From Romanomermis culicivorax (Eukaryota; Nematoda; Enoplea; Mermithida; Mermithidae): a stretch of 64,000 bases of DNA. Both the position numbers and the translations under genes were made by a program. The stretch is taken from positions 248,001 through 312,000 of the forward strand of contig CAWUHX010000120.1 in NCBI GenBank assembly GCA_963922205.1, given 5' to 3'. The notes beneath the pieces are model-generated. The model ran no database searches and was not told where the DNA came from. It saw only the letters and a list, made by a program, of their open reading frames with translations. Positions 3,240 to 54,250 of the stretch are shown here, one piece after another; position 1 is the first letter of the stretch; the number at the start of each line of letters is the position of its first letter.

Positions 3240-6200
3240 ATATTCACTGTGATTCACTTGGATCAAGCAATGACGTCAGCAACCAGAGGCACAAAAATAC
3301 ATATTCTGTGCGTTGATCCTTAGCTTTCTGACGTCAATTTTTCGGTTTTGTATCCTGAACAACTACAGTGAGAATGTTTATGATTCACATATTTTTGAAG
3401 TGTACTTACTGATCAAATTCAAGAGTTTTTGATGTATCAAGATCAGTAATACAATACGAGATGAATTTTCAATATCAAGGGACCCTGCTTGGTCCTATCA
3501 ACCTTCATTATGATTTACATGAATCAAAAGATGACGTCAGCAATCGGAATTGCAGCGCTGGCCTGAGCTTGCTGACGTCAAACCTCCGATTTTTTGCAAG
3601 TAATTAGAGTAGAACTTTTGGAGGATTTAAAAGCATTTCAACTGTCGTTCTTGATCAAATTGATGTTTTTTAAATAAGGAAATTTCCGACCTTCTCAGAA
3701 GTTTATTTTATAAATTTTAAATATCGAGGAACGATGGGCTCCACCTTTAGCATTTATCGAGGAATATTCATGAATCGAGGGACCAGTTCAGAAGCAAAAG
3801 CTTCAAAAGTATGCATTCTGTGCACAAATTCTTCCGCTTGCAGACGTCAAAGTGTCGATTTTATTTTGTAAACAACTACAGTAAGAATTTTATAATTCTT
3901 TAAGTATTTTTTTCCTCAAAATTATGTTTTAAAAGAATTTTCAGTGTCATTTCTGAAGAAGATCAATAATAAAACTAAGGTTGATTTCTAATATCGAGAT
4001 ACCGTGTTTGCTGCATCTTCGCTAATCATGATTAGCATGTGTTAGCAGATGACGTCAGCAACAAGAGCTACACAAATTCATGTTCTGTGCATTGACCTCT
4101 GATCTCGCTGACATCAAAGATTTGATTTTGTTGTGTTAACAGCTACAGTAAGAATGCTCATGATTTCCGAATTGTTGAATCTTACTTTCTCATCAAATTC
4201 ATGTTTTGAGATGATCACTATTAAAATCTGAATGAATTTTCAATATCAAGATATCCTGTTTGCTTCATCATCATAATAATTCGATCAATATTCACATGAA
4301 TCAACATATGATGTCCGGAAATAGCATTACAAACGTAAGCATTTGGGCATGGATCATTGAGCTTTGTCACGTGCCGATCGATTTTGCCCAATGTCACGTG
4401 ATTCACATTATGCTCATACTTTATGTTTTTCACCACTTTTTGTTTTACAGTTACTTACTCTTATTTTTGCGTTTTGTTCCTTATATTTTACATGCATTCT
4501 TGTGTGCATTTTTGTGTGTTTCATTTCTGTTTCGTTTTGTGTTTTCATTTCTATTGTGTTTATTATTTTTTCCGTCGCACACGTAGACTACAGTATGTGA
4601 CCCGTTAGTTAGAATTTCCGCCAAGATAAGTTCTACAAGCTTATGGCCATAATTGGAGCATTACGTGCATGTTTTATCAGTAAAAACTAGCGACGTTTCG
4701 CAATGCGAAATGACTAGTTTGGAAATTCTCTCTAGATGACGCTCATATGTTTAGCATGGAGAGTGAAACTCGCCCCAATGCTTAACATATTGGAACTGGA
4801 AAATGTCTATGTGACCATAGGCATCTTCTGCAGCCATTTCTGCTGCAGAAGTTAGCTTGGGCGTTGATAGCACCGCCCAAGGCATACTGTAGGTCTGTGA
4901 GGCCCTTTAAAAGGGCCTGTTTCGTTAGTTTTGTACTCATTTTTGGGCCTAAATCGTCTTCTTTGCGTGTTAGCTTGCGTCTTGCGTCTGCTGACTATAT
5001 TTTGTATTAATATACATATATTGTGTCGGCCATCTATATTTTAAATAAATTTGCATACAACTTCGCATTCATCACTGCATTGGGTTGCTGTACCCCTGCA
5101 TAGAAGTTACCGATCGCCCTTTGGCTTAGCAATTGCCTGTTGCTCCATTCCTTGACCCCTTGTGTCGCCTGCCCACCCATCTACAGTACACCCCGCGCCG
5201 GACCCAAACCGGACTGCTGGCACCCCTGCTCCATCGTCCCAGGTTCGGTGAACTCTTGAACCCGTCGCCCAGTGCGGAGTCGTAATTGAGGGAAGGACTA
5301 GGTAAGTCTTCTCAGGGGATTGTTGTTGTTCAGGGTGTATTTGTGGGAACCCTCCCCTAAGTCGGTTTTCGCTCGAGAATCCCCTCAGTTAGAGTAGCCC
5401 TTGAACCCCTTGGGTTCGGGCCAAAAAGGGGATTTAGGTTTACAATCAGGTCCCCTAGAGTAGGCCATTCCACAAATGGCCTTGTCCTTCATTCTCATTG
5501 AATGGGACTAGGGATTGCCACCCCTGACCCGCCGGCATTGTCCATTACTCTACAGCAGAACCCAAGGACAGTACCGAGGTATCCTATAGGCCCTCCTATA
5601 GCCAGTACCAGCTGGGTTAGGTTCCCGAAATGAATATATAAAGTGAGTCCCCAACGGGGTCACAGCATGTCACTCACAGTGACATGGCCGTATTTTATCA
5701 ATACGGCATGGGTTTTTCCCATCAATGTGATTGGTCACCAAATTTACTTAATGTGACATGGCTCCTAATTCGTTTAATGTGACAGCTTGATGACGTCAAA
5801 GTGCAGATTTTTTTTGTAAACAGGTACAGTAAGACAATGCAAAGATTCGAAAATTTGACCTATACTTTCTGAAAAAATTCGTGTGTTTCCTGGGACAGTT
5901 ATCTTAGAAGATCAATACGATGGCTTTCCAGTATTAAGGGACCCTGTTTGCTTTGTCTGCATAATGCTTCGATTCACATGTCATTATGATTCACATGAAT
6001 CTACAGATGACGTCATTAAAAAAAGTTACAAAAGAACGCATTATGTGCATGGATCCTGACACTTGCTGACGCCAAAAGTTCGATTCGTTGTAAATAGCTA
6101 AGTATGATTGATGATAAATTTCAAATTTTTGAAGTGTACCTGCTGGTCGATTTGTTTTTTGGAAGGGAAATTTCGAAGTTTTTCAGATTCACTATGACTC

Positions 6201-7335: not shown

Positions 7336-7630
7336 ATATTTGTAGAAAAAAATCAAAAAAATTTTACTACAGTAAACCTTGCTGACGTTACACAGTTATT
7401 GAATCGCCCATAAAAAATCGATAATCGACACTATCACTTTTTCGATTAATACTTCTAGAAAAATGTACGAAACTTCAATTACAGTACACGTTGCTGACGT
7501 CACACACTCATTAACTGGCTCATCAAAAATCGATAATGGACACATTCAATTCTTGGATCAACATTTATGGAAAGAAATTGTCACGTGTCGCACGGCCGTA
7601 CATCACCCCTTCGTAACTATCCCAACACTG

Positions 7631-7700
7631 GCTCGGTAGTTCAATCGGAAGAACGCGGCACTATAGTCACAGAGACCCGGGTTCGAATCCCGGTCGAGCA
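7631..7700 (+). pseudogene. tRNA-like sequence in the TRIM left LTR
   Basis: The 70-base unit has an acceptor-like stem (GCTCGGT with GTCGAGC), a D-arm with A-box TAGTTCAATCGG, and a T-arm with perfect B-box GGTTCGAATCC closed by a CCGGG/CCCGG stem. The anticodon arm does not form a normal 5-bp stem, so it is unlikely to be a functional tRNA. It could still serve as an internal RNA polymerase III promoter. No amino-acid identity can be assigned safely. Confidence 0.75.
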
Positions 7701-7762
7701 TTATTTTTCGAATAGTGTTTGGCGATGGTTAGGATGGCAATGTGTTTACCTATTACGTGTCA

Positions 7763-7780
7763 TGGCAAGGCTTGGATTGG
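7763..7780 (+). other. Primer-binding site of the TRIM
   Basis: TGGCAAGGCTTGG follows the left LTR without a gap, as expected for a site complementary to a tRNA 3' end in -CCA. It resembles the PBS of the large element (TGGCGAGGCTGG at 10747). Confidence 0.7.
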
Positions 7781-7838
7781 TCCCACATTGATGGGCCGCA
7801 GAACCTGCATCTTCAACGGACGAGGTCGTCCTTCTTTC

Positions 7839-7848
7839 AAGGGGGGAA
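7839..7848 (+). other. Polypurine tract of the TRIM
   Basis: AAGGGGGGAA abuts the right LTR. The preceding GGACGAGGTCGTCCTT matches the segment just before the 3' LTR of the large element (GGACGAGGACGCCCTT near 18834-18850). Confidence 0.75.
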
Positions 7849-7900
7849 TGTCACCTGTCGCACAGCCGTACATCACCCCTTCATACCAATCCCAACACTG

Positions 7901-7970
7901 GCTCGGTAGTTCAATCCGAAGAATGCTGCACTATAGTCACAGAGACTCGGGTTCGAATCCCGGTCGAGCA
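7901..7970 (+). pseudogene. tRNA-like sequence in the TRIM right LTR
   Basis: This is the second copy of the unit, 270 bp downstream of the first. The acceptor stem, T-arm and B-box GGTTCGAATCC are unchanged; the A-box has one change (TAGTTCAATCCG). The anticodon region shows a partial CTG/CAG stem. The B box has survived although the two LTRs differ by about 8%. Confidence 0.75.
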
Positions 7971-9770
7971 TTATTTTTCGAACAGTGTTTGGCGATGGTT
8001 ACAATGGCAACGCGTTTACCCATTACGTGTCAAAATCACAAAATATAAACTGGAGTACACCTTGCTGACGTCGCACAATTATCAACTCGCTCGTCAGAAA
8101 TTGATAATATACACATTCGCATCTTCGATCAACATCTATACAGAAAAAATTATTGAGAAATTTGAACTACAGTACACCTGGCGCAAGTCACACAATAATC
8201 AGCTCGCTCATCAAAAATCGATAATCAACACATTCGCATCTTCGATCAACATTTATACAGGAAAAATTACAAAATTTTATTTACAATAGACGTTGCTGAC
8301 GTCAGACAATTATTAACTCGCTCATTAAAAATCGATAATCGACACATTCACCTCTTCGATATCTTTCTAGAAAATAAAGCAAAACTTCAACTACGGTATA
8401 TCTTGCTGACATCACGCAATTATCAATGCACTGATCAAAAATCGATAATCGACACATTCGTCTTTTTCGATAGAAAAAACTACGCCATTTCAACTACAGT
8501 ACACCTTGCTGACATCATTCCATTATTAACTCGCTCATCAAAAATCGATAATCGACGCTTCTCTTCGATACAAAAACTACGGTATTTTGAGTACAGTACA
8601 CCTTGCTGACGTCACACAATCATAAACTCGCTCATCAAACATCGACAATCGACATATTTGCCTCTTCGGTCAACATTTGTAGAAAGAGCCATAGAATTTT
8701 AACTACATTACGCCCTGCTGACGTCACACAATAATTAACTTGCTCATCAAAAGTCGATAATCGACACATTCGCTTTTTCGATAGAAAAAACTACGAAATA
8801 ACAATTACAGTACACATTGCTGACGTCACACAATTATCAACTCGCTCATCAAAAGTATTTAATGGGCGTCTTCGGCTCTTCATCCAATATTTACGGAGAA
8901 AAACAGAATTTTGACAACAGTACATTCTTGCTGACGTCGCAAAATTGATAACTCGCTCATCAAAACTCGATAATCGACATATCTGGCTCTTCGATCAATA
9001 TTTCTGGAAAAACAAATTATAAACCCTGACTACAGTACACCTTGCTGACGTCACAAAATTTTCAACTTGCTCATCAAAAGTCGATAATCACCAAACTTGC
9101 CTTTTCGAACAAGATTTATTGATAAAACCACAAAATTCAAACTACAGTAGACCTTGATGACGTCACACAATTCTAAACTCGCTGATTAAAAGTCGATAAT
9201 CGACGGATAGGCTTCTTCGATCAGTATTTATGGAAAAATGACAAAACCCGAATAACAGCAAACCTTTGTCACGTGCCGCTCAATTCTCCAACATCACGTG
9301 ATTCCGATCATGCCGACATTTTGTTATTTTTCATGTTTTGTTTATTACCCGATCATGCTTTTGTTTATTTCATTTTTACACATGCATTTTACGTTCGTTT
9401 TTATATTTTTCATGCATTTCTATGTTTCGTTTTGTTGTATTTTTATTTCTTTACAAACGCGGGCTACAGTAGGCCCTTTAGCTAAAAACTTCCGCCAGTC
9501 GTGTTCCACGAGCACATGGCTATTTTTGGTGCGCTCACGCACCTCTTATCATCAAAAATTAGTGTCGTTTTTGTTACGCAAAAGGACTAGCTAAGAAGTT
9601 TTAGCTAAAGACGTTCATATGCTTAGCATAGGCACTGCAGCCGGCCTCAGTGCTAAACGCATGTGAATGAAAAAATGTCTATGTGCTCATAGGCATCTTC
9701 TGCATCGCGTCTAGCTGCAGAAGTTAGCTTGAGCGCCGAGAAACTCCGCCCAAGCTGCAGCTGTAGCCAA

Positions 9771-9792
9771 ACATGTCCTTAAAAGGACATGT
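9771..9792 (+). promoter_or_regulatory. Palindromic TATA-like core promoter of the LTR
   Basis: Arms 9771-9780 (ACATGTCCTT) and 9783-9792 (AAGGACATGT) are perfect complements around AA, so the TTAAAAG box sits at the centre of a hairpin. The solo LTRs at 4902-4920 and, inverted, near 53694-53718 keep the palindrome with different arm bases that still pair. Transcription would start about 30 bp downstream near the conserved CTCATT. Confidence 0.55.
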
Positions 9793-9918
9793 TTCTTTAG
9801 TTTTTCGCTCATTCTTGGGTTCACCAAGCTTTCGTCCAGTTGTCACTCCGCGTCCGCCGCCTCCTCGTCAAATTTGCATAATTTTATTATATACCTGTGC
9901 GTCCGCCGCCTTACTATC

Positions 9919-9924
9919 AATAAA
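9919..9924 (+). terminator. Polyadenylation signal in the LTR
   Basis: AATAAA within AATAAATTTGCATA, a block conserved in all LTR copies of this family. The equivalent in the 3' LTR is 19517-19522. Confidence 0.6.
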
Positions 9925-10200
9925 TTTGCATAAATTTACGCGTGTTCACTGCGTCCGCCGCCTAACGTCTACAGTACCCCGCTGCCCATCAGTGCCAGGT
10001 GTCCGACCGCCCCGGTTCGTGAATTAAATGTTGGAGTTTCGCCTCCCGCTCGCTCCCGCTCCCTCCCGCTCGCCGCCGCTCGCCGCCGCTCGCCGCCTAG
10101 GACGTTTGAGGATCGCATCCCCCGCTCCCAGTGCCAGAAGACCGAAAGCATCCAGGGACTTGCCGCCCGTTGCGTCGTAATCGCTTGAGAAACAGGACTA

Positions 10201-10207
10201 GGTGAGT
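10201..10207 (+). promoter_or_regulatory. Splice-donor-like site in the LTR
   Basis: GACTAG-GTGAGT in this LTR and GACTAG-GTAAGT in the solo LTR at 5300 keep a 5' splice-site consensus. Such a site could create a spliced RNA for the 3' envelope-like frame. Inferred from sequence only. Confidence 0.4.
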
Positions 10208-10746
10208 CTTCTCAGGGGATTATTGTTATTTGTGGGTTATTTGTTGGGAAATCCTTCCTAAGTCGGTTTCCCAAGGTTTCCACAGATAAGTAGGGCCTCC
10301 ACCTCTCAGGTTCGGGCTAAAAGGGGCTGTCTGGTTCATAATCGGGTCCCATAATTTAGGTCATTTTACGGGTGACCCTGTCCCCACTCTCACTGAGTAG
10401 GACTCGGGGATTGTCGCACCTAGCCTGGCAGCGTTGTCCATTACCCTACAGCAAGACCCCAAGGACAACCCAAGAGAACCAACTATAGACCTCTCTATAG
10501 CCACCAATTGCCAGGTTAGGCCCCAACGCCAACCAAGAGAAGCCTGGGGAAAATGCCAGTATCCATCAGGGGTCACAGCCTATTACTCACTGTAATAGGA
10601 TCAATCTGATATGGTTCACCATCAATGTGACGTCTAAAACACGGCATTACCTGATGAGATACCCAAACCTCCCCAGCTCTCCCAAGTCCACATGTCATAC
10701 ACATGACATGCCGTAAAATGTGACATGGGTGGTGCAATATGTGACA

Positions 10747-10764
10747 TGGCGAGGCTGGAAAATC
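10747..10764 (+). other. Primer-binding site of the gag/env element
   Basis: TGGCGAGGCTGG starts immediately after the LTR terminal CA. The cognate tRNA was not identified. Confidence 0.65.
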
Positions 10765-13700
10765 GATCTTAAGTCTGGCACTCGCCCTTAAGTGTAAAAC
10801 TTTACCCTTGGGTCGGATCTACCCCCAGGTCGGGTCAACTCCCATTTTAAGTCGGACAAGCCCCCTTAAAATTGGGCACTAGCCATCCAATAAGTCGGAG
10901 ACCCCCCCAAATTCGGGTTTACTGCCTAATGGGTCGGGAATGCCCCTTATTTCGGATTACCGCTACTGTAGGTCGGATACCCCCACCTCACGTCGCGTGT
11001 TATTACTGTAGTCGGAAATTTTTTCCCGTGCCACCGAGAGTTATTACTGTAGGTCGGGAATTTATCCCTGAACATCAAATTTAATTACTGTAAGACGGGA
11101 TTTGCCCTTACGAGTGATCTAAATGTGATCTATATGTATAAATAACTATCTCATGCGTGTGTATTATCCCCTATGAGTAATAAATTCCCCTCTGAGTCGA
11201 GTTATCTATCCCCAGAGTCGCGTTATTTGTCCCAGAGTTGAGTTATATATCGAGTATCTGTATTTCTCCTCTGATTATTTCTGTACATTCTGCCTACTTA
11301 AATCGGTGTTGTAAATTCCCTTATCTGTTCTCTTTTCCATCATTCCCCCCCTTCCTCTAATCCTGGGTGGTATACTGTAGCCCTCCGGGTGGGTGCCATT
11401 ACAGTACGCCTGTGCCCATTCCCGTACTGTAACTACAGTATACCCATACGCGGGTACTGGTATCACAGCTGTAGGGGTTTACGGCCTCTCCTGACTGTTG
11501 GTGGTCCGTGACCCCATGATACCGTACGCCCTCCACGTATGATCCTGGACGTCATACGTGGCTGCGATTTGTTAATTGTGTACAGCATTTTTGTCTGTCG
11601 GCGGAAACTGTCGGAACTGCTCACTTTTCCGGCCCCAAAATTTACACAGACTGTTTACACATTTAACACGCGTATGCCCAAATCCCGTATTCCCCGTCTT
11701 CGGTTATTTTCCTTTCCCTTTTCCTTTCTCGGTCAGCTGAGCGGTGTCAAAAAAAAAAAAAAAAATTCTGTTTTTCGGATGCCACCGCTACAGTATGACA
11801 CCCTTACATAAGTTTCTCTCTTCTGCATTTCTACTTACTGTAAGGTCTGTTTCTTCTACTTTCCGGTTGTTGCATCTAGACCATAGACTTTACGGGTCAT
11901 GTTCTTTGACGTCAGCAACAACAACGTTACGGGTTGTTGTTGTTGTGTGGTTCAGCCTCACGGATGCAACCACTAACGTCTGCAACAGCCGCTTCACTTG
12001 CTGTTGCTTTAAGGGGTGGGTAGCCCTCCGGGTTCTACTCCTGACGTCAGCAACCGACACTACGTGTTGTTGTTCAAGTTAACACTCCAGCAGTAATGAC
12101 TTCTGACGTCTGCAACAGGTGAAGCCAACGTTGTTGCGACAGGTTCGGCTGGTTCTCTGCACCCCATCTGTGACGTCAGCAATGGTGACGCACCCTGTCA
12201 CTATTCGAAGATGTGCAGGTCTTACGGGTGCCACATCTGACGTCTGCAACAACTGCATCTCATGTCATTGACCAAAGGTATCAGACCCTCGGTTCCACCT
12301 TTTGACGTCAGCAACGGCACCATCACGTGTTGCTGTACACCGATAGCTGGCTTCAGGGCCCTATTGCTGACGTCAGCAATGACAATGTATCATGCTCTCG
12401 CAGCAGGAATTGAGGTTACATGATCCTATTTCTGACGTCTGCAACGGTAACATTACGTGCTACTGCAGGGGTTTGCTGGCCTTAGGCACTCACCCCTGGC
12501 GTCTGCAACTGCGACGTGATACTTGAATACTCTTATCCCAGGCACCTGCAGTCAGCACCAAGGTTATGTGTTGGTCCATACCCCCTACCTTCTGACGTCC
12601 GCACCAGGTTACTGTCGGCCCTATGAGTATTCCACTTGAGTTGTAGGTGGTCGCTGGCGCATGGTCCTATCACCTACCTCTCTTGTTCAAGGGTTTGTGT
12701 GTGTCTGGGGACTGATGCCTGGGAAACATCAGTCCACATACATACACCACCTGAGATGCTCACTAGCCTACGTACTGATCAGGTTGTCCGCCCGGGTAGC
12801 GGCACTGTTGATCAGTATGTGGCTGTTTTCAAGCTTTAACTGCAGGTTTGAACGAGTTACACTCGGCCTCAGCTGGGTTGGTTGCTTGACTCGTGCAGAC
12901 GATAGGCATTTGCAGTCGGTACTGCCTGTGTCTGACGTCTGCAAGGGTTCGGCAATCTTCTTGTAAATTTCTTATCTAAATTCACTCATTCTCTTTCATC
13001 TCATCGAGCTGTCATACATAGATCTTCTTTAGTGTCCCCACCGTAGTGGTTCCCAAGGGACCGCGGCACAGCCTCCGGTTGGGCCTAGAGTGTATAGGAC
13101 CCCCTGTCATATTTTCTTTCACTCGAACGCCTTCGTTAACTGGCTTAACGATGCCCGCGCTAGAGTCGCCACTGACCCAGAGTCCGCCTCCGCGGTCTAC
13201 CCTTTATTAGTCATGTAAATAATAGGCACCGTTGAGTCCGCCTCAGCGAAGGTATTGAGTACGCCTCGATACATACTTTACACTCATATTCAATCAGGGA
13301 CACCTTGTACCCGTGATCCCTTAGATGTTTTCGGGTGCGCCCTCAAAACATCCAGAGATTTCATTTTAACTGACTGAGTGTGTCAGAATAGCACCCTTGG
13401 TACCCGTGCTCCTTCCCTCTTCTACTGTGTGACCTGCGAACCTCACTTCATCTCAGTGATCGGCAAACCCGGCCACCAGCTGTGTATAATACTCCTGGAG
13501 AGTGTCCGTTCTGTTCGGAATGCGGGCTCCCGTTCCGGACACGGCTGTAAGTTATTTGCGAATGTCGTCCAGCACGGAACCTCCTGTATAGTCCGTCTCA
13601 CTATGCAGAGATCGCAATCGCTCCTGGCGAGTGAGGCCCGTTGGGTAACTGCGCGACCCCTTTGCGTAACTGGGTTTGTAAATTAGTTTTGTCCCTATTT

Positions 13701-14384
13701 ATTGCTCCCTCTTAAGTTCATTTTCAGTTGACCCCTATCCTTTTCCACCTCATGCCACTTTATGCGCTACTCCTGGTGAGTAGGATCTTGCCCGCTACGA
13801 GTCCGCCTCGCCCCAAGGTTTGTAAACTAGTACAGCGGTCGAACCTCCAGGAAAAATCCCTCCTGAGCGGGTTTATCCGTCACCTTATTTCTCGGCAGGA
13901 AAAACCGCCTCTTCTCTCCTTTCTACATGATCTTCTGTCCTCTTCACCTATTCTAATTGCCGGGTCCAGGCCCCAAATTCTACATTTTGGTCGGGATCGA
14001 TTCCCCATGTCTCAGGCCAAGCCTCTGTCCATCACGGGCGACCAGATAAATTCCCTTCTGCGTCACCCTGATGTACTCTGATCTTACATCTTATAATCCT
14101 ATTCCATTCTAGCTCCCTTTCCGTGGTCGCTAGTCTTAAGCTAAGTCAATTTACGTCTTAAACGCCGTCGCACACGCGTTTTCCCGAATTCACGCGCTCT
14201 TTCGCCGCGAATTCAAAAGTAGTACTCACTTTCATTTTACACAATAGAGACACCCCGTCGTTCCTGCCGTCTCAGTACCCAGCCTGTACAGACCAGTGAG
14301 CCGCTCTCTATTCAATTTGACTTAATTGCTTCACGGGCAAGGACGTCTGTTCTAACCACCTTACGGGAAAACGAACCCTCGGAC
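10765..14384 (+). other. Long noncoding leader of the gag/env element
   Basis: This 3.6-kb stretch has no convincing gene. At 10800-11090 a GTCGG-then-CCC motif recurs about every 25-30 bp. At 11907-12945 lies a periodic TGACGTC(A/T)GCAAC array. The rest is pyrimidine-rich with scattered short frames that look like chance. Most autonomous elements have a far shorter leader, so it may hold regulatory or packaging sequence or the scar of replaced coding sequence. Confidence 0.6.
11907..12945 (+). repeat. Periodic TGACGTC(A/T)GCAAC array
   Basis: Thirteen copies or near-copies start at 11907, 11974, 12042, 12104, 12171, 12238, 12303, 12368, 12433, 12497, 12547, 12593 and 12933. The first ten are spaced 62-68 bp apart. 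Position 8 is A or T, alternating in the first seven. The copy at 12363-12380 is the 18-bp palindrome ATTGCTGACGTCAGCAAT. The core TGACGTCA is the CRE/ATF bZIP site. The sequences between copies are not obviously homologous. Confidence 0.85.
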
Positions 14385-17300
14385 ATGAAGTCGGAAACTG
14401 ATCTCCCTTCACAGATCGAGAACAAGGTCCAGGCAGCATTTGAGAATGCTCTTGGACCCCTCAACCAAAAGTTAGAGGCCATGAATGGTCGGAGGCACCC
14501 TCCCGTGTCCAGCTTTATGGCCCCTCCCACCTTCTCCGGTGCTTTTGGTGAGTCTATTACCGATTTTATGTCGCATCTTACTCGTTTCTTTACACTTCAG
14601 GGTGTAAGCGAAACGGATCATGCGTATAAAATCGCCTTTCTGGAGTCATGCCTCACGGGTCCTGCTCTCGCCTCCTACCGGGACTTTAGCAGCAGCACTC
14701 CAATACCTACCCGCTACGAAGAGTTTACGGCTTTTCTACGGAGAGATTTTCCGGTAGGGCGCGACTCTGATCTGCATCAGCAGCTGATCCAAGATCGACT
14801 GCAGAAGCCGACAGAGTCCGCGATAGTCTACTTTGAGCACCTCAAGAGACTATCCAGGGTAGCGTATCCAGATCTCGCGACGGATGTCCGAGATTCTATC
14901 ATCAAACCTATCTTTCTGCGGGGACTGAAGCCGGTCCTCCGAGATAGTATCAAGTTTAGGGAGTTCACGACTCTTGAAGAGACACTCAAGGCAGCCTGTT
15001 ACGCAGAATCCCAAATCTTTCGGGACGAGATCCGGTACACTGCTCCATCTAACGCCGTTTTCTCTTCAGAACCTAAACACGCCGGATATAATCCCGATAT
15101 GCCTAACAGAAGCGCAAACGGTCGTCAGAGCAACGCTCCAACGTCGTCATCCTCCGCCGATGAGGTTCGCCGCTTGAAACAGGAAATGGCCAGGCTCACG
15201 GCCCACGTAGTGAAGCTCACGGCCCAGCAACGTGCACCCGCGCCAATCCAACAGACGCCGCCTCCACAGCCGTCGACACCAAATCAGTCCGCCGGGCGAC
15301 GCTCGTCGGGAGCACACCTTCAAATGTGCTCCTTCCACGGACTGTGTACACATAGCAATGCCGACTGCCGGGCCCAGCGTCCCACCAGTGCCGCTCCCGG
15401 TAACAACACTGCTAATGGTGGTTGCTGTTATTTTTGCCGTACACGTGCCCACCCCACGGACCGATGTGATAGGCCATGCCCTCATTGTCGTCAAGTGCGA
15501 GTGCACCGATCAACTGCCTGTCCGCAGCGCAATCGGGCAAACACGGGTGAGAATGACTACCAAAATACTGGTTATTCTTCCCAGGGGACAAATGTGTATC
15601 ATCAGAGAAACGGTTATCACCCTCCTAACGGGATGGGGAACCAATATCGGCAGCCCATACGTGGCAACAACACCGTTGGGGCTACCGATGGCCCTCCTCA
15701 TCCAGATCCTCTTGACCTGGATGATGAGGCACTTGCTGAACACCTGACAGATTCTTCACAACAGTGTTATCCTGTCTGCGTAATCAGTATTGGATTTTCA
15801 GTGGTCCAAGCAGCCCAGGTACCCGTACCGATGAACGTATCGGACATACCGCTGCCACCACCACCACCAAAGTATGCGATGCCGGTCACTCTGGACCCCT
15901 CGACGACACCGCAGTTTGTTGGCCACGCTAACATCCTCGCATCGTATCGCATACCTAAACTCAAGACTGCCGAGCCAACTCCAGCCGCAAATACGACGTC
16001 TTCGGCGCCACCGGCCCGCACCGTCCCTCCAGGACCACCGCCTTCGATCCCCACGGATTCGGCTACGGAAGTCCTCGACCAGGTCGAGCCCATGAATTTG
16101 TCAGGTATACTACCTTCTTCTTCAGGTGATCCTAGAGTAGGAACCAGGAATCTCTCCCAGTCCACGACTCTATTGATTTCTTGTTCACAGCGCCATCGCC
16201 CGTCCAAGACGCGATGTTGGCCATCTGGTCAGTCGACCTGGCCAAGAAATACCCGCATTTGCCGTGGACTCTCCTCAACGAGCCATCAAATGTCGAAGCG
16301 CTCACGGCCGCCGACGTCGTGCTTGCAGCACCCGTCTCGATGCGCCTATTACGACCCGACGTCGCCCGCCGGGCACTCGAGTTCATTGCCAATGGGACTA
16401 TCACCATCTCGCCCGTCGAGAAGTTCTTATTGGACGGGGAGCCATCCTCGCCTTCAGTCGATGCCGTCCGCCGAGCAGTCGAACAGGCTAGTCGGATCCT
16501 CCTGCCTGCTGCCGCCGCTACATCACCGGCAGCAGCACCACCTGTTGCCGCGACATCGCCAACTAAAATGGACATTACTGCTTCCTCGCCCCCGGCCAAG
16601 GAACCCGCAAATGATCCTACACCGTCGGCAACAGCCCAGATCAAATCGCCGGCACCAGCCCAAACGACATCTCCGACCGCCGCGACCAAGTCGCCCGTCG
16701 TCGAACCCATGGCCGTCGACGAGACCTTACGTCCAGTTAATGAGGATGTCAGCATTGTTGAAACATCACCGTTCCCAACGGCAGTCAACCCACGGTCGCC
16801 GAAAGTCGGTACCCTTCGGGAAATCCTCCCCAGCGGTGAATTGGTCCTCGATTTCCCCGACCAGGAACCAATCTCGTCCGACAGCGACGAAGAAGAAATC
16901 TGACACTGCCCCTCAGGCCAGATTTGTGAAATTGAGTGAACACTTACAAATTACGTTTGTACAGTTGTTTTTGACAATAAAATTGACCTTGGTAGCATCA
17001 CTGTTTCTAGGGGTGAGTTTGTCAGCACTGGCGGCTCAGTATCAATTTTGCGGTCTCTCAAGAAGCGGACATCCACTTGAGTTACCCCAGCGTGTAGAGT
17101 GTAAACCACCGCAATCTTCATGGAGCCCGCGGCGCATGAATGTTACGGTGTATGTCCCTAGCTCAGACCCGATTACAACCACAGCGTGGAAATGCACATT
17201 GCGCTCCCGCAAAGTCTGCACCAACACTGGTTTCTTCGGCTCTAGGGGCATCACTGCAGACGTCATCACCACTCAGCACTTAGCCCCTGCGGCATGCACG

Positions 17301-18515
17301 CTAGCACATCGCACTAAAATGTTTGGTTCACAAAAACTTGTCGGCATTCGCCCTGGCTTTTATAGCACCAACCAAACATTGGAAGTGATGTACGAATGGT
17401 GCTGCAGCGACGTCTGCAAGACAGTGACTAACCTCTTCATCGAGGAGGGACAAGTCGCTTCGTGGGACGGCACTACGGCCCTAAGCACCTTAGGCGATGT
17501 AGGTGGATGCAGTCCCACTGCAGGCCAGTGCACTACTCTAGACGGGGTCATTGTCTGGCCTGCACAAAACTTCACGGCGCGGTGTCATTATCACCCCAAG
17601 GGAAATTACACTGCGTCCATGTCAGGGAACCACGTCATCATCGATGATCTACAGGTTGCCCTCAAGATCCCGGGAAACTCCCGTGTCTTCCAACTGTGCC
17701 CAGAACTACGTTCCACCACAGTCCGGACGGATCAGGGTCTTCTCCTTCGCATCCACGGGAGATACAATTTGACCCAAAACATGTTCAGAGTGGCAACGGA
17801 CAGCCGTCCCGATCCTGTCAATGCCAAGCTGAACTATCTGGCTCAGCAGATCAAGGAGTCGGAAATTAACGGTTTCCGGTTCACGTGGCTTGAGCTTTGC
17901 TCTCACGCTCAACGCTATCTTGATCTGACTTGGCAGTTGCTTCGCTTCGACCCTACCCTGGGTGCCCGGGCATTCCTCCAGAGGAATGACCTGACGGCGG
18001 AATTCACAGGCGATGCGCTGACAATATGGCCGTGTCAGAAGGTCAACGCCACCTACGTTTACCATTCGTACCGGGTGGGGAACGTTTGCTACAAGTACTT
18101 ACCTGTACAGGTTGGCGGCACCATCTACTTCGCCACCCCCGGTGGTCCGGATCTCATTAAATCTAGCCCAATTGTGCCGTGTCATCACCACTTTACAGGG
18201 ATTCTCCGAAATCGCTCGGGCTGGTTTACTGAGTCTGGCGCGGTCCATGTGAGCCACATCCCACTGGAACTCTTCTGGAAGCAGCGCTTCAACATCACTC
18301 ACTTTGAGGCACCGGCGCTCTTCCATGACCAGTTGGCGATGACCCCTTCAAACTTTGCCTTCTTTAAACAGTACGTTTACAAGACTGAGCAAATTGAAGC
18401 GGTACTCAACCGGCTGGTGAACTTTACCGCTGGTCTATCCCTGCAACCAGACGCCATCTACCAGGCCTTTGCAGGGGTAGAAGCGTCACGCCTTAGGCGC
18501 ATCCTCACGCGATAG
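14385..18515 (+). CDS. Gag-type ORF running on into an env-like region
   Basis: The 1376-codon open frame starts with ATG at 14385. Residues about 45-210 match the retrotransposon Gag (capsid) family in layout: a PPTFSG start, several amphipathic helices, and W/F-L-R-F spacing typical of Ty3/gypsy Gag. Residues 315-379 hold three zinc knuckles: CX2HX4HX4C, CX2CX4HX4C and CX2CX5HX4C. These package element RNA. From about residue 583 (nt 16133) to 838 the frame becomes arginine/serine/proline-rich and looks like the shadow of the overlapping -1 frame. From about 857 it is again protein-like and envelope-like. A single 1376-residue product is therefore doubtful; Gag probably ends near or shifts frame around 16136. 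Confidence 0.85.
16136..16903 (+). CDS. Overlapping -1-frame ORF, likely Gag extension
   Basis: This frame opens after a TAG at 16133-16135, runs 255 codons and ends at TGA 16901-16903. It lies in the -1 frame relative to gag and has no ATG near its start, so translation needs a -1 shift, splicing or a non-AUG start. The first ~110 residues have ordinary globular composition. The remainder is proline/alanine/serine-rich, and the end is acidic. I recognise no protease, polymerase or integrase motif. The composition contrast with the main frame argues that this is the real coding frame here. No standard slippery heptamer stood out at the junction. Confidence 0.55.
16904..18515 (+). CDS. Envelope-like glycoprotein region
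   Basis: In the gag frame, residues about 857-884 form a hydrophobic signal-peptide or membrane segment, followed by a cysteine-rich region (about 889-1080) and, from residue 918 to the end, nine N-X-S/T glycosylation sequons. This is the profile of a secreted or viral surface-glycoprotein ectodomain, in the position where LTR elements carry env, directly upstream of the 3' LTR. There is no clear C-terminal transmembrane anchor; the frame ends in a basic tail, so it may be truncated. There is no ATG upstream of the hydrophobic segment in this frame, so expression would need splicing or read-through. I cannot assign it to a viral glycoprotein family by eye. Confidence 0.55.
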
Positions 18516-18600
18516 CCTACACCTCTCAGGGTGCATCCTCTGCGATAGCCCGACAATCTGTACCTCACTGGGCGCATCCTCTGCGATAGCCTACATCTTG
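18495..18600 (+). repeat. Short triplication at the end of the env-like frame
   Basis: GCGCATCCTC followed by GCGATAGCC occurs three times (near 18498, 18531, 18572). The stop codon falls in the first copy, so the triplication may have created or moved the C-terminus. Confidence 0.5.
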
Positions 18601-18864
18601 CCCTGAAAATTTTTTTCTTTTCTGTGTTCTAGACCTTCGCACAGGATATTCAATGTCGGCTACTCCACGCATAAACAACCTCCGGTCACCATACCACCGA
18701 ACGAATTACGATCAAAGAAGGCCTCATCCACCGACAACCCAACGGACCTATTCGACCACTCTCGCCGTCACACCTTGGAATGACCTACGACCACGGACAC
18801 GCCGCATAAAACCTCACTACTGACCACTGCAAGGACGAGGACGCCCTTTTTCGAAGGACCGCCG

Positions 18865-20344
18865 TGTCATGTGCCGCTCAATTCTCCAACGTCACGTGAT
18901 TCCGATCATGCCGACATTTTGTTATTTTTCATGTTTTGTTTATTACCCGATCATGCTTTTGTTTATTTCATTTTTACACATGCATTTTACGTTCGTTTTT
19001 ATATTTTTCATGCATTTCTATGTTTCGTTTTGTTGTATTTTTATTTCTTTACAAACGCGGGCTACAGTAGGCCCTTTAGCTAAAAACTTCCGCCAGTCGT
19101 GTTCCACGAGCACATGGCTATTTTTGGTGCGCTCACGCACCTCTTATCATCAAAAATTAGCGTCGTTTTTGTTACGCAAAAGGACTAGCTAAGAAGTTTT
19201 AGCTAAAGACGTTCATATGCTTAGCATAGGCACTGCAGCCGGCCTCAGTGCTAAACGCATGTGAATGAAAAAATGTCTATGTGCTCATAGGCATCTTCTG
19301 CATCGCGTCTAGCTGCAGAAGTTAGCTTGAGCGCCGAGAAACTCCGCCCAAGCTGCAGCTGTAGCCAAACATGTCCTTAAAAGGACATGTTTCTTTAGTT
19401 TTTCGCTCATTCTTGGGTTCACCAAGCTTTCGTCCAGTTGTCACTCCGCGTCCGCCGCCTCCTCGTCAAATTTGCATAATTTTATTATATACCTGTGCGT
19501 CCGCCGCCTTACTATCAATAAATTTGCATAAATTTACGCGTGTTCACTGCGTCCGCCGCCTAACGTCTACAGTACCCCGCTGCCCATCAGTGCCAGGTGT
19601 CCGACCGCCCCGGTTCGTGAATTAAATGTTGGAGTTTCGCCTCCCGCTCGCTCCCGCTCCCTCCCGCTCGCCGCCGCTCGCCGCCGCTCGCCGCCTAGGA
19701 CGTTTGAGGATCGCATCCCCCGCTCCCAGTGCCAGAAGACCGAAAGCATCCAGGGACTTGCCGCCCGTTGCGTCGTAATCGCTTGAGAAACAGGACTAGG
19801 TGAGTCTTCTCAGGGGATTATTGTTATTTGTGGGTTATTTGTTGGGAAATCCTTCCTAAGTCGGTTTCCCAAGGTTTCCACAGATAAGTAGGGCCTCCAC
19901 CTCTCAGGTTCGGGCTAAAAGGGGCTGTCTGGTTCATAATCGGGTCCCATAATTTAGGTCATTTTACGGGTGACCCTGTCCCCACTCTCACTGAGTAGGA
20001 CTCGGGGATTGTCGCACCTAGCCTGGCAGCGTTGTCCATTACCCTACAGCAAGACCCCAAGGACAACCCAAGAGAACCAACTATAGACCTCTCTATAGCC
20101 ACCAATTGCCAGGTTAGGCCCCAACGCCAACCAAGAGAAGCCTGGGGAAAATGCCAGTATCCATCAGGGGTCACAGCCTATTACTCACTGTAATAGGATC
20201 AATCTGATATGGTTCACCATCAATGTGACGTCTAAAACACGGCATTACCTGATGAGATACCCAAACCTCCCCAGCTCTCCCAAGTCCACATGTCATACAC
20301 ATGACATGCCGTAAAATGTGACATGGGTGGCGCAATATGTGACA
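18865..20344 (+). repeat. 3' LTR of the gag/env element
   Basis: 1480 bp, identical to 9267-10746 except for four transitions. The 3' flank CCTT (20345-20348) is the target duplication, followed by satellite sequence. A purine-containing GAAGGACCGCCG precedes it, a poor polypurine tract. Confidence 0.95.
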
Positions 20345-26068: not shown

Positions 26069-29000
26069 ATGTTACCTTTTGGACACCAATTTTTCGGCCC
26101 AATGAGGCCTCAACCGCCACCGCCGGACTTTTTCGGACACCAGGGATTTTTCGACCCCCGGGCGGCCGCCGCCCGTTTAGCATGTCAGGCGGCCAACAGG
26201 GAGGAACCGAAACCTCAACATAGCTATATCGGCCTGATAGCCATGGCCATTTTGAGCAACGACGAGAAAAAAATGGTGCTTAGCGATATATACCAATGGA
26301 TAATGGATCATTACCCTTATTTTAGGTAAATTATTATTTTTTTTTTACTTTTTTTTACTTTTTTTGGTTTTTTTACTTTTTTTTAGTTTTTTTACTTTTT
26401 TTATTTTTTTTTACTTTTTTCACTTTTATTTTAGGACTAGGGGACCCGGTTGGCGTAATAGTATAAGGCACAATTTGTCGTTGAACGATTGTTTCGTCAA
26501 AGCGGGCCGTAGCGCCAACGGCAAGGGCCACTATTGGGCCGTGCACCCGGCCAACGTGGAGGATTTTTTGAAAGGCGATTTTAGGAGGAGGAGGTGAGCA
26601 TCATTTTTCTTGGAATGAAATTTAATTCATTTTTGGATGAAAAATGACACATTTTATTGCCCAAAATTTTTTTTTTTTTTGATCAAAAATTAAATTTTTA
26701 ACTTTGATTAGAAAAAAAAATCAGTTTTGATAAATGATATTGGATTTATTTCTGTCAAAAGTGACGAAATTATTGATCAAAAAAAAAATTTTTTTCGATT
26801 AAAAATGAAGTTTTTTTATATTTGATTAAAAATGTGGTATTTATTTTTGAAAAAAAAAATATTTCTTTTGGTAAATGAAATTTAATTCATTTTTGATCAA
26901 AATCAATTTTTTGATGAATCAAATATGTAATATTGTGATCAAATAAGATTCATTCCCATTATCGATTAAGCAAATTTGATTCGTTTATTATGCTTGATCA
27001 AATAAATTTATTTCATTTTTGATCAAAAACTTTTTTTCATCGATGAAATATATCATTATCCGAAAAAATTCCGAATTTCATTTTTGATCTGTGAAATTTA
27101 ATTCATTTTTCATCAAAATAAAGTTTTTGATCAATGAAATTTGTCATTTTTGATCCAAAAAAATTTCCAATTTCATTTTCGATCTGTAAAATTTAATTAT
27201 ATTTTCATCAAAATAAAGTTTTTGATCAATGAAATTTGTAATTTTTGATCAGAGAAAAATTTAGTTTACTTTTTTGATCAATGAAAACTGATTTTTTTAT
27301 CAATGAAAATTGATCTACTTTTGATCAAAACAAACCCTTTAATGAATGAACTTTGCGATTTTTGATTAGAAAAAAAATTATTCTTTTTTGATCAATGAAA
27401 TTTGATTCATTTTTGATCAGAATCGTCATTTTTTGATCAGAAAACAATTCATTTTTGATTTTTGATCAATGAAATTTGATTCATTTTTGATCGAAATAAA
27501 TTTTTTGATCAATCGTATTTGTCTTTTTGGATAACAAAAAAGTAATTTTCATTTCCGATCAATGGAATTGAATTCATTTTTGATTAAAATAAATTTTTTA
27601 CCATTTTTGATCAGAAAAAATTCAGTTTTTAGTTTTGATCAATGAAATTTTATTCATTTCTAATCAAAATAAATTTTTATGATCAACAAAATTTCTCTTT
27701 TTAGATCAGAAATAAATCAGTTTTCTTTTTTGATCAATAAAATTTGATTCATTTTTGATCTGAAAAAAATTGTTTTCGTTTTTCATCAGGGAAATTACAT
27801 TCATTTGTTATCAAAACAAATTTTTTGATCAATGAAAATTTGTCATTTTTGATCAAAAAAAAAATCATTTTTCATTTTCGATCAAGGAAATTTGATAATT
27901 TTTGATCAAAATAATTTTCTTCTTTCAATGAAATTTTTCGTTTTTCATCAAAAATAATTTCAGTTTTCTTATTTTTGATGAATTAAATTTGTCATTTCGG
28001 ATTGAAAATAAAATCAGTTTTCATTTCTGATGAATGAATTTTGATGCGTTTTTGATGAAAATTCATGTTTTTGATCGATGAATTTGCCATTTTTGATGGA
28101 AAACTATGTTTTCATTTTTGATCAATGAATTGATTGATTAAAAGATTGATTAAAAATTTTGTATCTTGAAAATTTTGAGCCTGTCCATGTGTGAATTTTG
28201 TGGATTGAATTTTCATTCTTGATCTGTAAAAATGTGATCAATCTTTAGTTCATAATAAATTCTATTTTATGCTACCATCTCCATTTTCGAGCAGGTTGGG
28301 TTATTACAAAAATTTTGTAGCAATTTTTGTATTTTTTTCTACATAAATGTGTATTGTAGATTCAATTTTTATTTTTGATCTGTGAAAATTAAACCGTACT
28401 TTAGTTCACAATGAGCTCTATTCAAATCTGTTCTTTTTTCGACTGTAGCTTGATTTTCAAGCAAGTTATGTTTCTTGAAAAATTTGTGGAAGCATTTCAG
28501 TTTCCAATATGTTAGGGTCAAAGCCTATCCTTATGTGCATGTATGCTTAAGTGTAGGGCAGGTGCAGGTAAAAGATACATGTATATGCATAACCATGGAT
28601 GAGTGTGATCAGATACCTCTTAAGCCTAAGCTCCAGTCTCTTGTCCAAAACCTGTGGCATCTCCAGGTTCCGGCTCCTGATCCACAAATACATCCGGATC
28701 CGTGACCGGCCACCACTAGAACTTGGTCCCGCCTTGGCACCTGTCTGTTAGCTCTAGCCAACACCTTCCCCATCATTCAGAGCCCAACGCAAAGTCAGGA
28801 AACACATGGGCCTGTCCGTGAACGACGAAGACGACAGCGACGACAGCCGCCCGGGATCGCCGGCCCTGCGGTGCGCGTTCATCAATCGACCGCCGCTGGG
28901 CCCTTTTTTCAGCCCCCTATCATTGCTGGATCCTATGAACCCGTACCTCTTACCATCGCCGCTAGCAAATTTAGTGGCGCCTGGGCCACCACCGCACCCT

Positions 29001-31311
29001 AAAACGTGCTCGTCGTCCAAAAAACGCCGGTTCAACGTGGACAGTCTATTGGCCGCCGAAGACGAAAAAACGCCGTCGCCGCCGCCACGGCAATCATCGT
29101 CGCCTGCCATCGTCGTCCCGACGTCAAATTTGCCATGCTCGGCCCATTCGCTACCTACCTCGATGCCCTTCCTACCGGCGGGCTTGTTCGGCGCCGGCAG
29201 CCGGATTGGTTGTTGGCCGTTCGGGCTTTGGCCGCCGAATCAATTTGCCGTGTCGCCGACGAACGGTCCGCAATCGCCGCCGGCGTCTTGTTCGTCGTCG
29301 TCGCCACCGTCATCGAACGGCGAAAGTCCGAAGCAGCAGCAGCCGCCGCCGGCTAATGACGCGGTTGTGGACCAGGCATCGGATAATGCGAGCCAAATTT
29401 CAGAGGGCAGGAGTTCGCCAAATGCGGCACAATGGCAGGTAAAGGACGATGTGCAGGAATGGATTGTGGTAAAGGACATTGTCCAGGGAAGGTAGCCATG
29501 AAGGTCCTTGTCGAGGCATCTTTGTCCAGGGAATGGGGTTCCCTGAAGGTCCCTGCCTTGGGGATGGGTGTCATGAAGGCCGCTGTAAATGGGTTGTTGC
29601 AGAGGCTCCTGTCAGGGAATCAGTTGTGATGAATGCCCTTGTTCAGGGAATGAGCTGCCATGGAGGCCCTTGTCCAGGGAATGGGCTGCAATCAGGGTTC
29701 TCGTCCATGGAAACAGGTGCCCTGAGGTTCACTGCCTTGGGGAGTGGGTGTCATGAATGCCCAAGTCCAGAGAATGGGATGCTAAAAAGGATGATGACAC
29801 AGAATTGGTTGTGATGAAGGCCAATGTCCAGGGAATGTGTTGCCATGAAGGCTCTATCCAGATAATAGACTTTGATAAGGGTCCTTGCCCAGAGAATGGG
29901 GCGCCATGAAGATCGCTCTCTTTCGAATGGGATGCCACAAGGGTCACAAAGAGGTTGTACTGAGGCCCCTTGTCCACGGAATAAGTTCACATGGAGGCCC
30001 CTGTCCGGGAAATGAGCTGCGATCAGGGCCCTTGTCCAGGGGTCGTTGTCTTGAGAATGGGGTGCCTTGAAGGCTCTTTTCCGGGTTGTCACAAGGGCTG
30101 CTGTCTGGGAATCGGTTGCAATGAAGGCCCTCGTCCAGGTTATGTGTTGCAATGAAGACTGCTGTCCCGAAAATGAACTGTGATGAGGGTCCTTGCCAAG
30201 GGAATGGGGTGCCCGGAAGATCACTGCCTTGGGGATGGGATGCCATGATGGCCCATCTCCTGAGAATGGGATGCCGCAAAGGCTGCTGTCATGATATCAG
30301 TTGTGATGAAGGCCCTCGGCCAGGGAATGTCTTTGATGAAAGCTGCAGTCCAGTGAGTGGGGACTACGATATGGGTGCTCCTTCAGGGAATGTGGTGCCT
30401 GCCTTGGGAAGGGCATGCCAGGAAGAGCCCGGTCCAGAGAATGGGATGCTGCAAACACAGCTGTTAGTGAAAGGGTTGCCATGAAGGTCCCTTTCCAGGG
30501 AATGGGCTACGATCAGGGCCCTTGTCCAGGGGTCGCTGTCTTGAGAATGGGGTGCCTTGAAGGCCATTGTCCAGAGAATGGGTTGTACCAAAAGCTGCTG
30601 TCAGGGAATCGGTTGCGATGAAGGCCCCCTTCCAGGGAGTATGTCGCGATGAAGGCTGCTGTTCAGAGAATGGGCTGTGGGGAGAGTCCTTATCCAGGAA
30701 ATGGGGTGCCCTCAAGGTCACTGCCTTGGGGATGGAGTGCCATGAAGGGCCATGTCCAGAGAATGGATTGTACCGAAAGCTGCTGTCAGGGAATCGGTTG
30801 CGATGAACGCCCCCGTCCAGGGAGTGTGTTGCGATGAAGACTGCTGTCCAGAGAATGGGCTGTGGTAAGAGTCCTTGTCCCCAGGGAATGGGGTGCCCTC
30901 AAGGTCACTGCCTTGGGGATGGAGTGCCATGAAGGGCCATGTCCAGAGAATGGATTGTACCAAAAGCTGCTGTCAGGGAATCGGTTGCGATGAAGGCCCC
31001 CATCCAGGGAGTGTGTCGCGATGAAGGCTGCTGTCCAGAGAATGGGCTGTGGTAAGAGTCCTTGTCCAGGGAATGGGGTGCCCTCAAGGTCACTGCCTTG
31101 GGGATGGGGTGTCATGGTGGCCCTTGTCTAAGGAATGGATTGCCACAAAGGCTGCTGTCGGGGAATCAGTTGTGATGGAGGCCTTTGTCGAGGCAATAGG
31201 CTGCAATAAAGGCCCTTGTGCAAAAAATAGGGTGCCCTGAAAGTCCATTTCTTGGAAATGTCCTTGATCACTTCACAGTATGCGGGTCCGACCGGGTATG
31301 GTGCCCACTGA
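26069..31311 (+). CDS. foxQ2: Forkhead transcription factor, FoxQ2 class
   Basis: Inferred exons are 26069-26325, 26435-26593, 28781-29438 and 31279-31311, with GT-AG introns. The join keeps frame and gives 368 codons plus stop. The forkhead domain spans residues about 50-140: [27 protein letters not shown], then recognition helix [13 protein letters not shown] and [11 protein letters not shown] wing. The [10 protein letters not shown] and [12 protein letters not shown] stretches and the [13 protein letters not shown] tail after the domain are diagnostic of FoxQ2. Residues about 223-229 (FNVDSLL) form an eh1-like Groucho-binding motif, implying repressor activity. The protein should be a nuclear DNA-binding regulator; FoxQ2 genes pattern anterior/aboral ectoderm in many animals. 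Exons 1-3 are strong. Exon 4 (ten codons plus stop) is inferred from a TTCACAG acceptor in the right phase; otherwise translation would read through the exon-3 donor to a stop at 29495. Confidence 0.9.
26326..26434 (+). other. Intron 1 of the FoxQ2-like gene (T-rich)
   Basis: 109 bp, GTAAAT to TTTTAG, phase 2, almost entirely T with periodic ACTTTTTTT. It splits the forkhead domain between the YFR and TRG residues. Translating through it would insert a hydrophobic run, which confirms that it is removed. Confidence 0.9.
26600..28140 (-). repeat. TGATCAAAAA-type array inside FoxQ2 intron 2
   Basis: Tandem degenerate units contain TTTTTGATCA followed by ATGAAATTTGATTCA and similar, repeated roughly every 25-30 bp. 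They are the reverse complement of the family at 44590-50200. The array occupies most of the 2187-bp intron (26594-28780). The rest of the intron (28140-28780) shows no gene. Confidence 0.85.
29440..31265 (+). repeat. GC-rich minisatellite in FoxQ2 intron 3
   Basis: Units of about 30 bp combine CTTGTCCAGGGAATGGG, TGCCATGAAGG and CTGCCTTGGGGATGG. A higher-order unit of about 185 bp (marker CTGCTGTCAGGGAATCGG at 30594, 30780 and 30967) is nearly identical in its last copies. Both strands have many open frames because the units rarely contain stops; I regard these as non-genic. The array begins immediately after the inferred exon-3 donor. Confidence 0.9.
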
Positions 31312-51447: not shown

Positions 51448-51789
51448 ATAAAATTCTATTCTATAAAATTCTATTCTATAAAATTCTATTCTATAAAATT
51501 CTATTCTATAAAATTCTATTCTATAAAATTCTATTCTATAAAATTCTATTCTATAAAATTCTATTCTATAAAATTCTATTCTATAAAATTCTATTCTATA
51601 AAATTCTATTCTATAAAATTCTATTCTATAAAATTCTATTCTATAAAATTCTATTCTATAAAATTCTATTCTATAAAATTCTATTCTATAAAATTCTATT
51701 CTATAAAATTCTATTCTATAAAATTCTATTCTATAAAATTCTATTCTATAAAATTCTATTCTATAAAATTCTATAATTCTATAAAATAA
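51448..51789. repeat. Perfect 15-bp tandem repeat
   Basis: About 22 copies of ATAAAATTCTATTCT with essentially no divergence until the last copy. Because 15 is a multiple of three it makes open frames on both strands; neither has a credible start or conserved context. Confidence 0.95.
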
Positions 51790-52825: not shown

Positions 52826-54250
52826 TGTCACATTAACTGAAATTGGGAGCCATGTCACATTAAACAGATTGATGATCAGTCACATTGATGGGAAACCCCA
52901 TACCATATTGCATAGGAAATACGGTCATGACACTGCAAGTGACATGCTGTGACCCCGTGGGGTGGCTCCGTTAATGGTTTCAGTTCGGGAACCTAACCCA
53001 GCTGGTACTACCACAGGTAAACCTATGGTGTACCTCGGCCTTGTCCTAAGGTTATGCTGTAGAATAATGGACAACGCGGCCGGGTCGGGGGTGCCAATCC
53101 CTAGTCCTCATTCATTAGGAATGAGTGACGGTGCCATTCACAGAATGGCGTACTGTAGGGGACCCGATTGTTAACCTAAATCCCCATATTGGCCCTGACC
53201 TTAAGGGTATGAGGGCTTTCTTAACTGAGGGTACTTCCAAGGGAAACTAGCTTAGGGGAGACTCCCACAAATATACCTCAACAATAATAATCCCTGAGAA
53301 GACTTACTAAACCTCTTCTCAAACTACTCGGTGCTGGGCGATGGGTTCGGGGGTCAAACTGTGGGTTCTACGGATGGCAACGAGCGGGAACGGGAATCCG
53401 GGCGATTCGGCGTAGGGTAATGCAGCTGCGGATCGGCAGGTGGCGGTAACAGACGTTTCCTCGGCGAGGGCAGGGGGGTTCTTTGATCAACGGTGATGGG
53501 CGGTGAGCTCCTACGGTCGGGTCACTGTAGAGGTAACATATATGACCGCCTGAGGCGAGTGTATGCAAATTTATTCGATGAGCGGCAAACGCAGTTGACA
53601 ATAAAATATAATAATAACGACGGCAAAAGGCAAGACGCAAGGCTAAAACGCAACAACTGATTAGAGTCGAAGACAAGACACAAAAAATGACAAAACATGC
53701 CCTTTTAAAGGGCTCCATAAACTACAGTATGCCTTGGGCGGAGTTAACACTCCCCCAAGCTTACTTCTGCAGCAGAAATCGTTGCAGAAGATGCCTATGG
53801 TCACATAGACATTTTCCAGTTCACAAGGTTAAGCATTGGGGCGAGTTTTCACTCTCCATGCTTAACATAGGAACGTCATCTAGTGAGAATTTCGAACTAG
53901 TCGTTTCACGTTGTGAAACGTTGCTAGTTTTTACTGATAAGAGATGCACGTTGTGCTCCAATTACAGCCATGAGCTCGGAGAGCTTATCTCTAACAGAAA
54001 TTCTTGACTAGCAGGTACATACCGTAGTCTACGTGTGCGATCAAAATAATAAGTCGAAACGGAAATAAAATGTGCAAACAGAAACAGAAACGAAGCATAA
54101 AAAAGTACACACATAAATTGCATGTAAAAATTATAAAAATGAAATGCAAAATTGATGCAAATTACTGTAACACAAAACGTAACGAAAAACATAATGAAAA
54201 ATTGTGATGTGAATCACCTGACGTTCGACGGAATTCGTCGGCACGTGACA
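52826..54250 (-). mobile_element. Inverted solo LTR of the gag/env element family
   Basis: 1425 bp. On the minus strand it begins TGTCACGTGCCG and ends TTAATGTGACA. The target duplication CAGA lies at 52822-52825 and 54251-54254. It is closest to the solo LTR at 4365-5784: shared blocks include the palindromic CCTTTAAAAGG core, AATAAATTTGCATA, ATAGGCATCTTCTGCA and the AGTAAGTCTTCTCA donor region. No internal sequence remains. The target does not contain the TGACGTCA motif, unlike the two other insertions. Confidence 0.9.

Follow-up and report, generated by a model that had tools for sequence, protein, structure and literature searches.

A 454-bp element in the genome of the mermithid nematode Romanomermis culicivorax is read here, with a probability of roughly four in five, as a Helenus-type TRIM (a miniature LTR retrotransposon) that would be driven in some form by Pol III and served by a Ty3-type helper. 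Helenus is the name given to TRIMs with tRNA-derived LTRs, which have been reported from fungi, six animal phyla, and one plant (Kojima 2024, PMC10886601). The element occupies positions 7579-8032 of a 64-kb window, the window being the whole stretch of DNA that was analysed. It apparently extends Helenus to Nematoda, it has beside it a Ty3-type relative that shares its PBS core, a circumstance rarely available for TRIMs, and it makes testable how an LTR element with a Pol III promoter gets a template RNA with repeated ends. The features on which this reading is built are listed below by window position and strand, with the basis of each call in parentheses.

7575-7578, no strand: left target site duplication AAAT (chance 0.0086)
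7579-7762, plus strand: 5′ LTR, 184 bp, TG..CA (inferred split: U3 7579-7629, R 7630-7708, U5 7709-7762)
7630-7701, plus strand: 5′ LTR tRNA-like unit with boxes at 7637 (A) and 7680 (B) (Rfam RF00005, 36.0 bits)
7704-7708, plus strand: TTTTT, Pol III terminator-like (T5 so placed in 0.98% of 5000 LTR shuffles)
7763-7780, plus strand: PBS-like internal start with TGGCAAGGCT core (core in the window only at 7763 and 10747)
7811-7842, plus strand: block also present at the end of the Ty3-type element's internal part (local score 18, reached by none of 19765 random 60-mers of the window)
7839-7848, plus strand: polypurine tract AAGGGGGGAA (sequence)
7849-8032, plus strand: 3′ LTR, 184 bp (repeat alignment)
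7900-7971, plus strand: 3′ LTR tRNA-like unit with boxes at 7907 (A, one mismatch) and 7950 (B) (Rfam RF00005, 33.6 bits; ARAGORN)
7974-7978, plus strand: terminator-like TTTTT for Pol III, where the template RNA is proposed to end (sequence)
8033-8036, no strand: right target site duplication AAAT (matches the left copy)
9267-20344, plus strand: Ty3-type LTR element, relative of the likely helper (shared PBS core, pre-3′LTR block, and LTR start)
60499-61100, minus strand: probable second tRNA-LTR TRIM, tandem (three LTRs, two internal parts)

The initial annotation described a miniature LTR retrotransposon with paired LTRs, a PBS, a polypurine tract, and a target duplication, and this anatomy was confirmed, the PBS as a PBS-like start, the 454 bp dividing into 184 + 86 + 184. 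The two LTRs align without gaps and differ at 15 sites (8.2%, K2P 0.087), nine of them transitions and six transversions, in agreement with the divergence of about 8% reported at the outset. Both begin with TG and end with CA, the first bases being TGTCAC and the last GTGTCA. The internal part is non-coding, opens with TGGCAAGGCTTGGATTGG, and closes with the polypurine tract, which lies immediately 5′ of the 3′ LTR start at 7849; the PBS-like TGG start sits at its expected place, directly behind the 5′ LTR. This copy of the TRIM is judged to be old on account of the 8% divergence of its LTRs. No second copy was found elsewhere in the 64-kb window, and exact-pattern scans of viral and prokaryote contig collections gave 0 matches, a result of little weight since records of the nematode's own genome are possibly absent there.

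The element is embedded in a satellite of about 112 bp, and one copy of AAAT flanks it on each side, with a chance of 0.0086 that two random 4-mers of the flanking satellite are equal. Removal of the element had been said to restore the satellite, and the joined flanks do align to satellite units through the point of joining (77.8% over 463 columns in one case); the precise length of the duplication emerged less sharply. When five joins, with 0, 2, 4, 6, or 8 bases dropped, were scored against three satellite libraries, dropping 4 bp (AAAT) gave the top join in one library (74.5) and the runner-up in the other two, at 54.5 versus 55.3 for two bases dropped and 68.9 versus 69.3 for none dropped. 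The empty site agrees with a 4-bp duplication and is by itself no proof of it.

The tRNA-like unit reported in each LTR was recovered by Rfam, where both copies exceed the gathering score of 29 bits, with E-values of 0.0007 and 0.003 in a whole-window search; the window holds three such matches above threshold in total, the third at 60527-60600. ARAGORN, in its bacterial setting, called the 3′ copy alone, as tRNA-Tyr(ata) at 7901-7970. A working tRNA from the LTR unit is unlikely, because in the Rfam alignment two of the five anticodon-stem pairs of the 3′ copy are non-standard and the anticodon arm of the 5′ copy is skipped. The folding of the unit RNA was likewise no better than that of shuffled sequences (z -1.28 and -1.04, equalled by 17 and 27 of 200 shuffles).

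The A-box consensus is TRGYNNARNNGG; the 5′ copy fits it, the 3′ copy falls one mismatch short, and both LTRs retain an intact B box, GGTTCGAATCC, 43 nt downstream of the A box, all much as originally described. Pairs of A and B boxes with at most one mismatch per box occur three times in the window, both strands counted, in the two TRIM LTRs and at 60.6 kb, compared with one pair in 10 mononucleotide shuffles of one strand. Tolerating one and two mismatches for an A/B pair adds two pairs, at 25372 and 26258, unrelated to any element here, and tolerating two and one adds a single pair at 13949. The identity of the two B boxes, to which the initial annotation had drawn attention, was observed again. 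It says little, since differences within the unit (4 of 72 sites) are not significantly rarer than in the remaining LTR sequence (11 of 112, Fisher p = 0.41); slower divergence of the promoter unit, the check proposed along with it, is not supported by these figures.

Runs of four or more T residues on the plus strand of the element are limited to the two TTTTT tracts, each 2 nt behind an Rfam unit. When the 5′ LTR was shuffled 5000 times with its dinucleotides preserved, 0.98% of the shuffles had a T5 run starting no more than 10 nt behind the unit, and 4.1% a T4 run. The TATA and AATAAA/ATTAAA motifs searched for are absent from both 184-bp LTRs, which at a length of 184 bp is weak evidence; both of the long LTRs examined in the window carry at least one AATAAA or ATTAAA, and a TATA motif occurs in one of the two, the long Ty3-type LTR also being without it. 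From the unit and the T run together we infer a putative Pol III cassette that would coincide with the R region (7630-7708), leaving a U3 of 51 bp and a U5 of 54 bp.

The same LTRs could belong to an ordinary Pol II-driven TRIM in which a tRNA-derived SINE once inserted and in which the unit is now a passenger. This explanation is improbable in our estimation, yet it accounts for a unit that diverges no more slowly than its surroundings and for a first TTTTT that would halt Pol III, and insertion of a SINE is the origin that Kojima proposes for Helenus (PMC10886601). It sits less well with the second tRNA-LTR array in the same window, and less well, if weakly, with LTRs in which TATA and AATAAA-type motifs were not found and with a 5′ LTR that keeps both promoter boxes and the terminator intact despite 8% LTR divergence, an outcome that is often expected by chance.

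The Helenus-type reading also draws on the large LTR element 1.2 kb downstream of the TRIM. Its 1480-bp LTRs are 99.73% identical, by which measure the element is young, and it is flanked by CCTT. An uninterrupted frame of 1430 aa matches Ty3_capsid (PF19259, E 1.3e-7) and, near its end, Monjiviricetes_fusion (PF24664, E 8.4e-14). Of 7997 candidates scored, six were relatives of the capsid piece, the best four of them from R. culicivorax. Pol gave no match in the pieces scanned, eight further pieces were without a Pfam match, and some short ORFs lay outside the scan; this Ty3-type neighbour is likely to be without pol. Chuvirus glycoproteins are known in BEL-Pao elements of mosquitoes (PMC7642597), whereas the capsid here is Ty3-type and the host is a nematode that parasitises mosquitoes.

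Several features link this neighbour to the TRIM. The PBS core TGGC[AG]AGGCT, a pattern composed after both sites had been seen, was found on either strand of the 64 kb only at the two positions listed, each directly behind a 5′ LTR. The block preceding the 3′ LTR in both elements scores 18, against 16 for the best of the 19765 random 60-mers. A GGACGAG-type motif before the polypurine tract is common in Ty3/gypsy elements, so the shared block may reflect kinship at the level of the superfamily and not of the family. The LTR start TGTCACGTG[TC]CGC is common to both 5′ LTRs, and each 3′ LTR has one change within its first seven bases, that of the TRIM at base 7. Duplications of 4 bp recur in the Ty3-type element, in a solo LTR at 4365-5784 (GCTT), and in an interrupted minus-strand LTR at 52826-54250 (TCTG, read by eye), the latter two being of the same TGTCAC...GTGACA type as the LTRs of the 9267-20344 element. 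As to the primer, the PBS showed no convincing match to the 3′ ends of the animal tRNAs considered, and self-priming found no basis in the 5′ LTR, where no 6- to 9-mer from the reverse complement of the first 18 internal bases is present.

The shared LTR start, PBS core, and pre-3′LTR block might also be inherited by a deletion derivative of a Ty3-type element whose tRNA likeness is incidental. That origin is very improbable, for the 184-bp LTR gave no match to the 1480-bp LTR in the element-against-window comparison and the Rfam E-values of both units speak against an incidental likeness. Least probable of all is that two tandem SINEs or a tandemly duplicated tRNA pseudogene, with no LTR element, explain the two tRNA-like units arranged as a direct repeat, since TG..CA ends, a polypurine tract, and 4-bp flanks fall exactly at the repeat ends and the PBS-like start is common to the Ty3-type element.

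For a Helenus-type TRIM with a Ty3-type partner, the following cycle can be proposed from sequence. Pol III would use the promoter that lies within the 5′ LTR and begin transcription of the TRIM near 7630. A full-length transcript must read through one terminator, because TTTTT stands just behind the 5′ unit; many transcripts may end there, at about 79 nt, and some may continue as far as the TTTTT in the 3′ LTR; the resulting template, about 349 nt long (7630-7978), would start and finish with the same tRNA-like unit. The promoter, being carried inside the RNA, would be copied anew each time round. A Ty3/gypsy-type element sharing this PBS core would supply reverse transcriptase and integrase in trans; it is most likely a member of the 9267-20344 group that has its own pol and was not seen in this window. 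A narrower proposal is advanced tentatively, as one that may well prove wrong: the Pol III cassette, promoter and terminator together, may double as R, such that a leaky 5′ stop and the 3′ stop alone would give identical RNA ends, with no Pol II start, poly(A) signal, or U3 promoter needed.

A second, probable tRNA-LTR TRIM lies at 60499-61100 on the minus strand, as a 220-bp tandem that reads LTR-internal-LTR-internal-LTR, with the following parts.

61100-60930, minus strand: LTR (cut)
60929-60888, minus strand: internal part
60887-60710, minus strand: LTR
60709-60668, minus strand: internal part
60667-60499, minus strand: LTR (cut)

The middle LTR is complete, with 178 bp and the form TGTTGAG...CTCAACA. 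Each internal part is 42 bp long, with TAGTGACCC or TGGTGACCC lying one base beyond the preceding LTR and GTGGAGGGA ahead of the following one; we take TGGTGACCC to resemble the 3′ end of tRNA-Trp. All three LTRs contain an A/B-box pair at up to one and two mismatches, and one exceeds the Rfam tRNA threshold. No target duplication is readable, because the two outer LTRs are truncated and each end of the array is bordered by a copy of a 70-bp repeat (84% identical). The copies of this repeat occupy 60401-60497 and 61095-61161, and their outer part runs into GGCTCACCCTGTATA, which presumably resembles mariner-type ends. Between the two tRNA-LTR families, the only likeness is a stretch of 34 bp (76%, E 0.033) around the B box, and no common origin is claimed for them on so limited a likeness. 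If the array is what it appears to be, two dissimilar tRNA-LTR families within 64 kb would imply more than one origin or spread of this solution in Nematoda.

The remainder of the window includes a forkhead-domain exon at 26304-26594 (PF00250) and, about 2 kb downstream of it, an ORF at 28758-29492 with one relative in a protein search, an uncharacterised R. culicivorax protein (91% identity over 91%). A perfect 15-bp tandem repeat spans 51448-51774 (21.8 copies, 100% matches), and an imperfect inverted repeat at 207-298 with sub-threshold matches to microRNA families (mir-957 at 30.9 bits, gathering 66) is probably a repeat hairpin.

The initial annotation regarded an animal TRIM with a tRNA-type promoter as little described, an assessment since overtaken by the description of Helenus (PMC10886601). 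As in Helenus, also known as TRIMp3, a tRNA-like sequence with A and B boxes lies in both LTRs, and a polypurine tract precedes the 3′ LTR; where Helenus has a PBS complementary to a tRNA, this element has a PBS-like start that begins with TGG. As in animal Helenus, which have 4-bp target duplications and Gypsy-type partners, the duplication is 4 bp and the partner is Gypsy/Ty3-type, and 454 bp falls within the reported length range of 311-1263 bp (PMC10886601). The nematode host, in contrast, stands outside the six animal phyla of that paper's main text, in which the words "Nematode" and "Caenorhabditis" have 0 occurrences, and Nematoda is apparently a new host phylum for Helenus (PMC10886601). 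Annotations of TRIMs as such exist for another nematode, Meloidogyne incognita (PMC8685519). No further papers on Helenus, TRIMp3, or tRNA-LTRs were found in the literature covered, which was short on subscription journals. Kojima calls Pol III transcription of Helenus unvalidated and notes, for rust fungi, that tRNA-like LTRs inflate tRNA gene counts (PMC10886601); the terminator-bounded R region differs from Helenus as described and is a reading proposed here.

Other TRIMs resemble this one in part. Plant Cassandra TRIMs, too, have LTRs that each contain a Pol III promoter and terminator from a small RNA gene, and they are known to form tandem arrays of LTR and internal domain, but they are derived from 5S rRNA and occur in plants (PMC7215508, PMC10853983). 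Ajax is likewise an animal TRIM with a Pol III-type promoter in its LTR, but it is derived from 5S rRNA, has 5-bp duplications, and is reported from two nemerteans (PMC10886601). The ta-TRIM of taeniid cestodes is an animal TRIM for which a helper, lennie, was proposed from a shared LTR start and PBS, but it is abundant in polyadenylated RNA, and a tRNA-like unit is unmentioned in the portion of its description consulted (PMC4558846). Set beside these systems, what appears to be new in R. culicivorax is a Ty3-type relative 1.2 kb away that shares the PBS core, the pre-3′LTR block, the LTR start, and a 4-bp duplication with the TRIM, along with a probable second array.
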